Source of the DNA: Lutjanus erythropterus
Taxonomy: Eukaryota > Chordata > Actinopteri > Lutjaniformes > Lutjanidae
Direction: 5' to 3'
NCBI GenBank assembly: GCA_020091685.1
Contig: CM034608.1
Span: forward strand, 2,719,105 to 2,783,104
Length of the DNA: 64,000 nt
Shown in pieces: positions 4,410 to 53,440 of this stretch. Position 1 is the stretch's first letter; every line of letters begins with the position of its first letter. The position numbers were made by a program, and so were the translations under genes. The notes under the pieces were generated by a model that saw only the letters and a program-made list of their open reading frames with translations, did no database searches and was not told the origin of the DNA.

Positions 4410-7400
4410 ATGTGTGTGTGTTGCTACAGGATAACAAAGTTTTACAAAACTACCACACATATATAAAAAACAAGACAGTGATGGATGCAAAAAGAAGATT
4501 AAGAAAGCTCAGATAATAAGATTTGGTGTGACTGAGTTAAGAGATGTTTTAATCTTTTTATTTGCAGTGTAGAGGCCAAACAGCACAACACACAGCACTT
4601 GACATCTATTCATTCTTTCTCCTAACCCTGACTCAGTCCTCACCATCAAACACCTGCTGCTCTTTTTAAATGAAGCTTCTATTGTGTCTCTGTGTCAATG
4701 TTTTTTTAATGTGTTTTCTTTGGATGTCGATGTTTTTTTCTGCACATGTAAGCAAAGACAAATCTTCCATTTGCACGCAAACGGTTTATAATAAAGTATT
4801 TTTCATTCTATTCTATGCATTTTAACAAGATGAATATTAAAAATCACTAGGCCTGCTTGATTATGGCAAAAAACATAACGATTATTTTGACTGATGTTGA
4901 AATCACAATTATTAAACATGATTATTCATTAATTTGAGAACATTGTATATGTTTATTGAACTTTTTTTAACAGGATGACTTTGAACTTTCAATATAACTG
5001 AATTTAAAAAATAAGAAATCAATGGTAATAACCAATTTAGTGAAAAAATATATAGATCCAACAAATACTATGGGAAAAATAAATAGATATCACCAACTAC
5101 GTTGTACAGTTTTACACAGCGAGCTGCATCGCAGAGTCAAAAGAGGTGTGACACAACACAACAGCACACCCGTCACCAGGTGATTCTATTTGAATTGAAC
5201 ACAAACAGCAGAGAAAATGTAACTCAGCAGTGACTGTCCCGCCCTGCCCGCTCAGTTTTACACTTCTTCCCGGCTGAAGGCTGCCTTTCCGTCATCTTTT
5301 ACAGGCTGTTTGAAATTAAATCAACATGAGCTGATTGTGTGCTACTTTTACAACACAAGACAAAACGCAACACACTACCACCACATCAGCAGCAGGTTAC
5401 CTGCAGCCTAATGTTACATCACATAATGACGTCTTTCTGTACGTCCAAAGTATGTCTCAGTCCACCAACTTATTTCTATCCCTTTTCCAACGATGAGGAA
5501 GCTATTACAGATGGTAAGAGCTCTTGATCTGATATGAGGCTGAGTCATTCACCCGATTATCTGCTCTGTGCTTGGGTGAGTGCAGGATTTAAAGGCAGCT
5601 TAGAGACACATTAGGTCAGGGCTGGAGAATGTTGTCACCTGTCAGAGGACTACGTAGATTAATGACAACACAGCCTGATACCCAGCGCACAGCGCAGGTC
5701 CTAATGATAGGTCAAACATCACTTCACATGAATACTGGCTTCCATAATACTGACAACTTCTTTTCATTTTGTTTTTAGTCTGTTGCTGCTTGTCTGGTTT
5801 TAAACTGTATGTGTTGTTAGGATTAGGACTGTGAATGTTTCTTGTTCTCAGGTTTTTCTTCAAAAAAGAGATCATGTTATCAATGAGTGAGATTAAAATA
5901 ATGTTTTAAAAACTATTTTAACAACTATATATGTTATAATTGGGACAAAAACATATGTCTAGGGGATTTTGATTTTTACTCTTCAATTATGGAGGAAAAT
6001 ATATCTTAAAAGATCAAACTCTTGGTTATCAAACCTTGTACCAGGCCAATCCCCTGGTGATTACATTTTTTATTCAATGTAGATGTCTTACAAAGTTGAC
6101 AAAATGCTATTTTTTTTTTCATTTCACAGCATAGTTGTAGTGAGCAGCCATTTTATTTTTCAAACTGTCTCAGAGTTCTCTTAATGTTAATCAAAACACA
6201 CATTTTTACACCTTAAGTCTTATTTATTTTTGACATGTTATGGTTGAGACACATCTGATAGATTTGAATTTGTCAAAAAATATAATGTTAACCAGTGTTT
6301 GAGCAGGATTCCTGCCTTTTTGAAAACCTGGTAGTGAGACAGGGGTCCTTAGAGTATAGATAACCTTTTTTTGAATACCAGATTAAATCAGGTTTTTGCA
6401 AAAATCTGATGGAGTTGACAGAAATCTGGGACACAACTTTAAAGGACCAACATTTCCATTAAAAAAAACAAACAAACAAACAAACAAATTTTTTTTTAAA
6501 ACAAAGATTATTATAATTGCACATTTTTACACTTCTGTTATCAGTAGATATTGTTAGTTTTAGATTTTTAAAGATTTTTAACACATTTTTAAATTGTTTT
6601 TCAGTTGTGAATTATTGTCTGGGACGAGGCTGTTTTCTGGCACGGAGCAAGTTTATAAATGAAAAAATTAAAGCAAACCAAAACATTAACCCTAACCTGA
6701 AATTACATATACTATCATAAATATATATATATATATATCCTTAAAGATTTATTTTTCACCAAAAATTTGGAATTAGATTGTTGGATTTGTCTCAGTGCTA
6801 AAAACGGGTGATGTATTTTTCCTCTCAACTGTGGTTGGATAATTATGAAAATGACACAACTGACGTAACAACAATAACTGTCATCACAGTGTACTACATG
6901 TTCTGCCCGCATTCACGTGGGTCTCCTCTGGGTGCTCTGGTTTCCTGCCATCCCAAAAATAAGCTTGTTAGATATTAGGAATACTCCTGCCATCGGCCTC
7001 GACCACGTAACAGGCCTGAGGACTGGATCTGATCCCTGGGCAGTGGCTTCCTGCTGCTCCTGAATAGTTTGGATGGCCTGAATACAGAGAATGAATTTCC
7101 CCACAGGGACTTTAAAAGTCGGACTGTAGAACCTGTCATGTTCTTTTCAAAAGCAATGGTCAAAATCAGGACCACAAATGATATCTTGCCTCTTCTACCT
7201 GAAAATCTTTTTTCACAACAACAGAGGAACAATGTCTTTTATAACTGCTGTATGAAATTAGGGCTATAACTAATGATTATTTTCATAGTCGATTATTTTC
7301 TCGATTAATCAATTAATAGTTCTGTCTTTAAATGTCAAAAAATTGTGAAAAATGTCGATCAGTGTTTCCCAAAGCCTGAAATGACATCTTCAAATGTTTT

Positions 7401-49180: not shown

Positions 49181-49213
49181 ACTTTTGAGCCCAACTTAAC
49201 AAGAGTACCCGCC

Positions 49214-49288
49214 TGCAGGGAAGATGGCGGACAAGGGCGCCGCCATAGCTCTACTCCATACCGGAAGTCCAAACCGGAAGTTGGTCTT
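49214..49288 (+). repeat. Left terminal inverted repeat of the 2.9-kb element
   Basis: Starts TGCAGGGAAGATGGCGGACA and includes GGGCGCCGCCATAGCTC and ATACCGGAAGTCCAAACCGG. 70/75 match to the right TIR. Confidence 0.9.
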
Positions 49289-49480
49289 TTTTTAAAAAGA
49301 AAACTTTATTTAACGTATATAAAACGAGACAAGGATTGTTCACGCAACAATTCAACGTAAAAGTTCTACTCCATACCGGAAATCGGTCTTTTTAAAAAAA
49401 ATAAATAAAAATAAATAAATAAATAAAAATATTTAGGAGGATTGGACAAGGATTGTTCACACAACAATTTAACTTAAAAA
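49250..49480 (+). repeat. Tandem duplication inside the left end of the 2.9-kb element
   Basis: Two ~115-bp units (49250-49362, 49363-49480) share TCTACTCCATACCGGAA, GGTCTTTTT, ACAAGGATTGTTCAC and CAACAATT. The second unit has an expanded (AAAT)n tract. The right end has a single unit, so the duplication is left-specific. Confidence 0.7.
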
Positions 49481-50444
49481 TCAAGCGTCAGTGGTGGAAA
49501 TATTACAGTCTTTATACAGTATGTAAAACTGAGATGTTAGCAAGTAGAAGCCTAAAATAATTACTAAGTGATAATATTAATGTTCCATTGATTTACAATT
49601 AATATTAAGACGTTATTATACAACGTGAATACAATGTGTGTGTGTGTGTGGGGGGGTGTTCTCACATCATTCACACTAGAACTGAACAATAATCACCTTC
49701 ACATTAGCATGGTTAATGTAATTGTTATTTATGCTGAGTGTTTAAAAGGAGGCCAGCACTGTAAATCATTAGTGGTAATACAGTGTAAAGACTGTATTCC
49801 TCAGATATTATGCAGGATCTTGTTTGCAGGAAGCTGGCATGCTCTCCCTGCCTTTCCTGTATATGGCCCAGCCTGCCCACCAGAAGATTCCTTCATTAAA
49901 CACAGGACACACTCCCCACACATTCTTTGCTTAAAAGCATAGGAGAAAAGCTTAGCTAAATGATTTCAATCCTGCTGGTCGTTTCCTCACCCACTAGGGA
50001 TCTTCCAGGATGAGAGAGGGGCATCATGAGCAACACAGTGGCCCCAGACAACTGTGACTGCAACAGAACAGGGAGTTCCTGGGTCTGGAGAGGTGTTCAT
50101 TTACAGGTTTAACTATTAAATGAATGCAATAATTAGATTTTCCTATTGTCAGATTGTCAGTATTCTATTAATAATTAATAATTAATTTCTGAAATAAAGT
50201 TAAACACATTACATTATCATGCTGACAACATTAAGAACTTGACTTGGACTTCTCTTTTTTGTGATAAAGGTTTTAATGCATTCCATCTCCAAATCTTCCA
50301 AAATAGAAAAACAAACATACAAAGAAATAAAATCAAAAACAGGGGAAAAGTACGAACAACAATGGAGATGAGCAAATGAAACAGAACATGAAACAATGAA
50401 AAAACAAGACAAAACAATGAACAATAAAACAAAAGTTAAATCAG

Positions 50445-51713
50445 GCTCCCACTGGCCATCATGATTTCTGCCTGCAGTCGGGTCATGCCTTCTTCCAAGT
50501 TTTTGATCAGCTTCTGAAAAACAGTTAAATGATCCAATCATACCTTGTGGTGCTCTAGAGAGTGCACTGTTTTGTTTATATGTTTTCCAAAGGAATAAAA
50601 TATTGACCACAATAACCCAAAAACTCCCTTTCATTTCCCAAGCAAGCTAGATTGACCATCTTACCTCTGGGAGCATAACATCGAAGACAAAATCCAGGAG
50701 TCTCATCTCCCCTCTCTTTATTTGCGCTCCTACACCTGTGACCTCCTCAATGACCCGCAGTAGCTCAAGGATCTATTGAAAAGAAAAGTACAAATCAATA
50801 AATTAATCTTTTATACGTTACATCTACTACATACAGATATTTAAGTAGTAGTACCTTGGTCTGTCATTCATATCTGTGCATCCACAGTTGAATGAGTCAT
50901 CATTGAGATGTTTATGGCACTTTCCGGCACAATCTTTGTGCAGCCAGACCTTGCACATTTGGCACTGCACCCATTCCAGAGACGCAGCATCTGGGTATAA
51001 CAGTCTAACCGCATAAAAGACGTTAACATTTTATGTTTGAAATTAAACACATAAACTATCCAACTGTTATCCTTGTACAGTGCATGTGAAAGCATTTTCA
51101 CAAATACAAAAGATAGTCACTTTCTTAAAAACAGTGAATAGGCCTTTAACTGTTCAGTTCTTAAATTAACTTTTAAACCCACCTCTGTCCTGTGTTTTGT
51201 GATGTCTGGAAAACAGAACAACTTTAGGTCAGCCATGCACAGTCGTCGTTCGTTATCAGAGGCCGTCTCTGCCGTGGTTGCCTGGGCAAGTCAATTTGTA
51301 GAATCAGATCCATGCCTATCTGGCAAATATGTCATGAAAATTATAATCCAGACAATCTAGCATCAAGGAGTCTAAAGACAACCGTCTGTTAAACTGCACT
51401 TTAAAGCACTGCAACTCAATATAACACTGATTAAATTATGGCAAGCTTATGCATGCAAAAACACATTATCATTCAACATTACTGTTACATGTAAAATTAT
51501 ATGATCTCAGACAGATACTTATCATCATACCCTGGAAATGCACTGCATTTGCTGAGTGGTTTTCAAGGTTCCTCTGGATCACACTGTCAGTTTTAGTAAT
51601 GAATCTGGGACAGAGAGGACAAACTCAGAGGATGACAAGACTGTGCGCTCCAGACTGGATTCTTTGGATGAATAGAGGGGTGCATCTGAAAAAGGAGATG
51701 ACAAACAACATTG
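50445..51713 (-). CDS. Transposon-borne spliced gene remnant with PHD-type zinc finger
   Basis: Minus-strand exon candidates. About 51607-51713, after tttttcag, reads APLYSSKESSLERTVLSSSE. About 51182-51286, after gcccag, reads ATTAETASDNERRLCMADLK then LFCFPDITKHRTE. About 50872-51011 reads LLYPDAASLEWVQCQMCKVW and LHKDCAGKCHKHLND, with C-x2-C, H-x2-C and a final C-x-C as in the second half of a PHD finger. 50663-50774, after ttcaatag, reads ILELLRVIEEVTGVGAQIKR. 50445-50517 reads KLIKNLEEGMTRLQAEIMMA and stops. Exons 1-2, 2-4 and 4-5 join in frame; the PHD exon does not join in phase 0, so it may be an alternative exon or damaged. Function is unknown: in such elements a PHD finger would be expected to bind histone tails, which is inference. 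Confidence 0.45.
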
Positions 51714-52067
51714 ATATCTAGAAAACTTTACAGATCATAAGGTTAACACTACATGTGCTTCTTTTTGCTTATAATATCCTCTCCTTCAGCGCTCGTTCTC
51801 ACTACACACTGTCCTGCTATCAATAAACGCAGGTGGCGATGTTGCACACTTTCTTTAGCTAAGCTAACGTTAGCCCGGACCATCGAGTCGAGCGGAGAAA
51901 CAACCTTCCCAACTCATGTCACTCATTACATACATTACATTTGTACATAGCATAAAATTGTATCTTAGATCACACGCTATACTTTTTAGATAGAGGATAA
52001 TTAACACTCTTTCGCTTACCTTTCTATCTTTTCGTATCTTCGTATCTACCGTCTGGACGCTAAGAAG

Positions 52068-52142
52068 AAGACCGACTTCCGGTATGGACTTCCGGTATAG
52101 AGTAGAGATATGGCGGCGCCCTTATCCGCCATCTTCCCTGCA
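52068..52142 (-). repeat. Right terminal inverted repeat of the 2.9-kb element
   Basis: On the minus strand starts TGCAGGGAAGATGGCGGATA and includes GGGCGCCGCCATATCTC and ATACCGGAAGTCCATACCGG. Probably the promoter of the internal minus-strand transcript, since a good donor lies 50-120 bp inward. Confidence 0.9.
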
Positions 52143-52145
52143 GCC

Positions 52146-53440
52146 AGGTCCCTCTCCAACTTAAACTCTTTTGTTTTGAAATAAACTTTAAAAAGTTTTG
52201 CTTACCTATAATCTTTACTTGAGATAATTATTTTTTCTTTTGTAGATAAACTTTAATCTTTCTAATCTGGAGTTTTAGAAACTCAAATGTATTTCAAAAA
52301 TTGGTCACAGAGAGCTGTAGACCTGATTTGTCATTTGTTTGGTGACTGCAAATTAAATAGTTTTAATTAAAAATATTAAAATTCACTTTCACTTTAATGA
52401 CTTTACTCTATAATTTTTAAAATACAGTAGTAGTAGTTTTTTCATGTCGCCCTCAGACGTCGTTGTGTAACAGCCTGCAGGAATTAACGTTTAGGAGCGT
52501 CAGCATATGTCAGCAAACTTGACATCAACAATCTATCAGACTAAACTATCAGAACCTCCTCAAAACACAGTGAGTCACATTTCATTGTTTGATCATTTGT
52601 GTTGCATTTAAATGCTGTCTCCTTTTGCGCATCTGTCCTGAGAAAACATGTTGTTGTGGTGCTGAATCTTTGGCTCACGGCTTATGAGTTCGAATAAATT
52701 AAAACAGTTATCAATGCGTTTTGCACCCTGCCATATATTGGTTGAACAGTATATAAACCTAAATACATAATACCAAAAATGTCATGGTAGGAATCCATAC
52801 AGGTACAGTGCTACCTCAAGGCAACATTTACATTTTAACAGTTTTTCATCACTTAATTATCAAATTAAGTACATTAAACAATTAAAAATAATTCAACTGT
52901 TAATGGAAGTCCATTTTTTCCCGTTTGTAAAATGACAGAAAAAGATGTGACTATGTTTGAGTTGATGGGTCAGATGTAAGATGTAAGAGAATTCACGAAT
53001 TCAACATGACCTCCATAGAGTTATGTGACAAATGAAAAAACTGCTATAAGAATAATGAATATGTATTGTGTAAGTGTAAAAGGCCAAAAAGTACAAGTGT
53101 TTCATTCTGGTAATGTGTTCGTTTGCTTATGCCAATTAGTAAATGTTCCCTTGGTTGATGAGCGCACCCACCGCCTTCTGAGCCAATGGGAAGACGCCAT
53201 AGTACAGAGTCCCCTACCACAGATTATCTGAGGTAAGTAGCTGTCAATGAAAAAAACAAAACTGGACAAATAACGATAAATGACGCCGTGTCCTGCTTTC
53301 TAAATTTCCTCTGACCGTGTATTAAAGCTGATTTAGCATTTTCAGAGACGTACTGACTCAGGAAATTGTCCGAATGAGCACATTAACCCCGATGTAAACA
53401 AACTAGCAAACAGTGGGACGTGACTAGAAAGGAAACCCAG
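52146..53440. other. Intergenic: repeat remnant, then nothing recognised
   Basis: 52146-52310 continues the host repeat of the TIR element (see 3340-3720). The remainder is AT-rich with no recognised gene; the open frame 53025-53231 lacks support. Confidence 0.5.

Follow-up and report, generated by a model that had tools for sequence, protein, structure and literature searches.

The window, a 64,000-nucleotide stretch of contig CM034608.1 of Lutjanus erythropterus, contains a transposon at positions 49200-52156 (2,957 bp), whose termini read 5'-CAAGAGTACC and 5'-GAGAGGGACC. The left terminal inverted repeat (49200..49292, plus strand) begins with 5'-CAAGAGTACCCGCCTGCAGGGAAGATGGCGG, the right (52064..52156, minus strand) with 5'-GAGAGGGACCTGGCTGCAGGGAAGATGGCGG. 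Counted from the true ends, these repeats are 93 nt long and agree at 79 of 93 positions. On either side lies an 8-bp target-site duplication, CAACTTAA (49192..49199 and 52157..52164), which was recognized by comparing octamers among copies and from empty sites. Between the repeats, on the minus strand, are the remnant of a multi-exon gene and an exon captured from a host antizyme gene. All genome searches described here were made in the window's own 938-Mb genome.

The first-pass annotation had described two 75-bp inverted repeats with 5 mismatches, and a count on the arms bears this out at 49214-49288 and 52068-52142. It had also taken the outer edges of these arms as the boundaries of the element (49214-52142, 2,929 bp), which was wrong. 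The inverted arms stretch outward to 85 nt at 91%, and the 14 bases beyond each 75-bp arm (left, CAAGAGTACCCGCC; right, read inward, GAGAGGGACCTGGC) recur with minor variation in most of the other copies listed, at unrelated sites. This comparison drew on 36 fetched genome stretches. Since the 14 outer bases are present in most copies, they are element sequence. The same holds for the GCC within them, which had been read as a possible 3-bp target duplication. The duplication is instead 8 bp long, and the site of the octamer is itself part of the host repeat.

We compared flanking octamers in 25 copies with both ends (16 window or longer loci and 9 small end fetches; one-ended copies were left out). 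The two octamers are equal at 7-8 of 8 bases in 15 of the 25 copies and exactly equal in 10, and only 1 of 600 control cross pairs reaches 7-8 of 8. Exact flank matches at other lengths are nearly absent, with one at 6 bp and none at 7, 9 or 10 bp. Ten copies have no clean octamer match. Some of these show no repeat at all, and in others, such as L009, L023 and L052, additional bases next to the left end shift the octamer out of place. Extracting the flanking duplications of full-length copies, a check proposed with the first-pass annotation, thus did yield two-ended copies with 8-bp duplications.

The element was also correctly recognized as inserted in an older repeat, and this host repeat is very common. 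A query made of both flanks joined with one octamer found at least 47 matching pieces (3,899 first-look candidates, of which 40 were scored), two of them the window's own flanks. Among the matches listed, 43 of the 45 others cross the joining point. In all nine stretches fetched from the matches that cross it, we found a single octamer (exact in two, with 6-7 of 8 bases in seven) and no element end.

Other copies with common ends are present. The element finds at least 179 matching pieces in the genome. A search for the end patterns with at most 3 mismatches gave 56 right-end and 49 left-end matches, C4:7795667 being in both lists, and its reversed control gave 0. Divergence from the consensus is 1.4-5.5% among 19 aligned copies (K2P, non-CpG) and 2.0% for the window copy. 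On this measure, the family is fairly young. Among the copies examined, none has an intact transposase gene with family ends, and the family accordingly looks either dead or reliant on an unseen source.

Some smaller relatives also have the family ends. These 0.5-1.5-kb elements (L037, L049, L050, L051, L052 and others) are mostly of a GTCTGCAGGG subtype, lack the antizyme exon in the aligned copies and have different filler between their ends. Such short elements may constitute the larger part of the family. Two right-end-like sites, C13:10207807 and C16:37327677, have a common variant, TGCAGACAACATGG, and are possibly a sister family. L014 (C15:37.87 Mb) and L020 (C15:32.06 Mb) have much the same right flank and the same double left end, which suggests a duplicated nested insertion.

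Both ends of the window copy contain a motif of YY1 type (CGCCATNTT, which in the left repeat reads on the opposite strand) and two CCGGAAGT sites, which we take to be ETS-type. Among the 81 end-pattern matches, which include false internal ones, AAGATGGCGG occurs in 39 and CCGGAAGT in 45. In the lancelet transposon ProtoRAG, the terminal repeats drive bidirectional transcription, and their YY1 motif is important for both transcription and recombination (PMC7481187). The resemblance consists of the motif CGCCATNTT inside terminal repeats; we claim no kinship of ends or proteins. By analogy, the terminal repeats of the present family could be promoters. They are no more conserved than the interior (82 of 2,070 versus 1,516 of 54,281 differing non-CpG sites), a count that ragged alignment ends bias against the repeats. 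The original description of a transposon whose terminal repeats look like promoters is supported to this extent, the promoter function itself being a matter of likeness. The repeats are long, and the element is a non-autonomous DNA transposon.

The remnant gene of the window copy lies on the minus strand. Its last coding exon (50436..50513; KLIKNLEEGMTRLQAEIMMASGSLI, then stop) follows an AG acceptor and recurs in other copies. An exon ILELLRVIEEVTGVGAQIKRGEMRLLDFVFDVMLPE that ends in ...DVMLPE (50665..50772) and a PHD-finger-like exon (50855..51004) each have an AG acceptor and a GT donor, so that, as read from the sequence, the last three exons have usable splice signals. The C-terminal exons recur throughout the family, with 44 matching pieces in the genome. 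A PHD-bearing gene had been proposed here. A PHD-like exon is indeed present, but its best Pfam score is weak (16.3 bits, below the 28-bit cut-off). Further upstream in the gene is an N-terminal C2H2-like exon (51529..51665), which is in two frames with a frameshift near 51621 and is also found in the longer copy L048.

The window copy has two deletions. Relative to the family consensus, 681 bp are missing at 50825..50826, a stretch that is also absent from L013. A larger internal deletion has its junction at 51396..51403. The match to contig C301, which represents the catalytic type, extends up to 51396, and that to L048, the N-terminal type, starts at 51403, so the window gene consists of N- and C-terminal ends joined by a deletion. 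Judging from these matches, what is left of the PHD-bearing gene once belonged to a transposase-type protein with many exons, and its N- and C-terminal exons are now fused over the missing interior. The window copy is a shortened and probably dead one.

L048 (C9:39213700-39217800) has both family ends. It contains a 445-aa open frame in which C2H2 and SWIM-like motifs are visible by eye, the latter as a CxC...CxH pattern that the Pfam SWIM model does not match. Nine matching pieces in the genome are related to L048, counting itself, and L054-L056 are among them. A PDB search with the open frames of L048 and L054 gave weak matches (best E 0.037). Downstream of L054 and L056 is a catalytic-type exon, and a relative of this exon occurs on contig C301, which also holds the family copy L031.

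On one strand of C301, a reading that covered most of the contig gave the exons CxC4, HTAV, FEK, SAP, catalytic-type, PHD and LPE in this order, followed by a 3' region with a piece of the antizyme exon. The C301 DNA is 94-96% identical to the family consensus and, over two stretches, 89-91% identical to L048. Its catalytic-type exon is 58% identical to L062 and contains stops; catalytic-type exons at C5 and C12 are 57-58% identical to that of C301. The SAP exon scores 15.0 bits in Pfam, where the cut-off is 23.9. The stretch of C301 that we examined has neither family end and no SWIM-type exon, and none of the copies examined combines the catalytic exon with both ends. The HTAV exons of L048 and C301 differ at 11 of 156 positions, 10 of the differences being non-synonymous, compared with 51 of 654 outside the exon, and thus give no sign of selection. 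The suggested search for a longer copy with a nuclease core was therefore partly successful: C301 has a catalytic-type exon, but the exon carries stop codons.

Three copies of 8-9 kb (L022, L026 and L027) were considered as autonomous forms and rejected because of their open-frame content. L022 has two open frames of at least 120 aa in all. In L027, a non-LTR retrotransposon (L027:3375-7056; C23, minus strand), with reverse-transcriptase and endonuclease-like frames recognized by eye, lies inside the family copy and brings it to 9.4 kb. L026 (C4:21494354-21503839) has C2H2 zinc-finger open frames, also recognized by eye, between two left ends with near-identical flanks, an arrangement that looks like a segmental duplication. 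An open frame of 1,727 aa at C10:39164458 was rejected as a run of N.

Past the final coding exon of the remnant gene, towards the left end, lies a captured stretch (49944..50091, minus strand) that we take to be exon 2 of a host gene for ornithine decarboxylase antizyme (OAZ). It is 78% identical to the exon of the antizyme gene on C7 over 152 columns, nearly from acceptor to donor. Within it, positions 49968..50026 on the minus strand match the Rfam Antizyme_FSE model (RF00381) at 49.8 bits, above the gathering score of 40. Genome-wide, 21 matches to RF00381 exceed the threshold. Three are of host type (C7, C18 and C12), and the other 18 belong to this family, each having been verified individually against family copies, C301 included. 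An in-frame TGA interrupts the +1 frame of the captured exon, in the 19-copy consensus as well as in the window copy, and the exon was therefore already inert when these copies spread. As in Pack-MULEs, a host exon is carried and multiplied by a transposon. However, nothing Mutator-like is present among the features tested, the duplications are 8 bp and a single captured exon was recognized. In literature with most subscription papers outside its coverage, we found no earlier report of a transposon capturing an antizyme exon, of host-gene capture by Zisupton elements or of CxC4 together with KDZ (Kyakuja-Dileera-Zisupton).

That no superfamily could be named in the first-pass annotation followed from misreading the target duplication as 3 bp. 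With a duplication of 8 bp, the superfamilies that make such duplications are back in play. Zisupton target duplications are 8 bp (PMC12730594), and the Zisupton gene is multi-exonic (PMC9297572). The present family also has terminal inverted repeats and a multi-exon gene, the latter seen as AG/GT signals in the window copy and as ordered exons in C301. In addition, the CxC4 exon of C301, the longest coding copy, matches PF18717 at 30.7 bits (cut-off 26.9), a model that Pfam describes as "CxC4 like cysteine cluster associated with KDZ transposases". The CxC4 exon of L056 scores 30.6 bits in a direct scan. A genome-wide search with PF18717 listed C301 as its sole match and missed this L056 exon; such a search is thus not exhaustive, and single exons can escape it.

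The putative catalytic part is not recognized as KDZ. PF18758, the KDZ catalytic model, matches neither the catalytic-type exon of L063, nor that of L062 (198 aa of it), nor a 125-aa piece of C301. Genome-wide, it has one match, an unlinked relic at C168:5514-5864, and C168 does not have the ends of this family. Together with 6536-6847 of the same contig, this match (L045, L046) makes up a separate KDZ relic, with 51.4 bits for PF18758 in the genome search and 33.8 bits for CxC3. C168 also bears a reverse-transcriptase-like open frame of 523 aa. We considered C168 as a source of transposase and rejected it, as the family ends are missing from it despite its KDZ-domain relic. When a two-row alignment of the catalytic exon was compared with the relic on C168 by hhalign, no signal emerged.

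With PF18758 unmatched, C168 lacking these ends and hhalign uninformative, we do not file the family as a proven member of KDZ. Its membership is nevertheless likely on the sequence features listed, and the family probably works like KDZ/Zisupton elements and is related to them. The earlier view that no superfamily can be named relied on a misread duplication, and the CxC4 cluster associated with KDZ is present in a longer relative. Judged from one genome and the Pfam and Rfam models, this is a new family of an already known kind of element, with a notable captured exon.

We consider it quite probable that the window element is a non-autonomous copy, shortened by internal deletion, from a family of DNA transposons that move by cut-and-paste and make 8-bp duplications, and whose parent had a KDZ/Zisupton-like multi-exon gene and a captured antizyme exon. 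The parent would have had terminal repeats of about 90 bp, probably combining a promoter with the transposase-binding site. Its gene, on the minus strand of the window, would have comprised, in this order, C2H2 fingers, a SWIM-like finger, CxC4, HTAV, FEK, SAP, a putative RNase H-type catalytic region, PHD and the C-terminal exons. This gene would resemble KDZ/Zisupton transposases and relatives of the HMGXB3 type. The parent would by then have captured antizyme exon 2, which is now carried inertly between the gene's final coding exon and the left end. The core was presumably lost through internal deletions, and the shortened copies may have been moved by transposase supplied from elsewhere.

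It is also conceivable, although unlikely, that the multi-exon gene is not a transposase but a captured host gene (HMGXB3-like), and that an unrelated transposase moves the ends. Relatives at C5:36.14-36.15 Mb and C12:2.53-2.54 Mb contain most of the exons and none of the listed end matches, and could be host genes; HMGXB3-like proteins presumably include the catalytic-type exon seen there. The antizyme exon is a precedent for capture by this family. However, most of the gene is present in L048 and C301, arranged and oriented as in the shortened copies, and the CxC4 cluster is associated with KDZ transposases by Pfam. The 8-bp duplication fits Zisupton (PMC12730594). The present family differs from HMGXB3-like vertebrate genes in being multicopy and bounded by terminal repeats, and stops or a frameshift disrupt C301 and the copy in the window.

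A long shot is a separate lineage with 8-bp duplications and a catalytic domain of HMGXB3 type that is outside the reach of the KDZ model. In the intact ancestors of this lineage, the antizyme frameshift exon would have followed the transposase gene, and a signal responsive to polyamines in that position might at one time have affected expression.

An 8-bp duplication is also usual for hAT elements (PMC12730594), so the element could be a hAT transposon carrying host exons. This seems very improbable. The hAT target preference is nTnnnnAn, and the 25 left octamers do not show it, with A9 C7 T7 G2 at position 2 and C9 A6 T6 G4 at position 7. This count takes in the ten copies that have no clean duplication. 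The family coding exons tested, which come from incomplete copies, also have no hAT match in Pfam. Finally, an element of 49214-52142 with a 3-bp duplication and no known superfamily, suggested by the GCC that adjoins both 75-bp arms, is virtually impossible, being refuted by the recurring 14 outer bases, the octamer duplications and the host repeat that runs through the octamer site.

What had been called unclassifiable is now a testable family, with its true ends and 8-bp duplication defined and with a transposase-type gene that has for the most part been pieced together from separate copies. It is a clear case in an animal of a transposon with terminal repeats that amplifies a host exon. 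RNA-family scans of genomes for antizyme frameshift sites would score such copies as false genes, as 18 of the 21 matches here illustrate. The lineage may also help to trace the origin of HMGXB3-like host genes.
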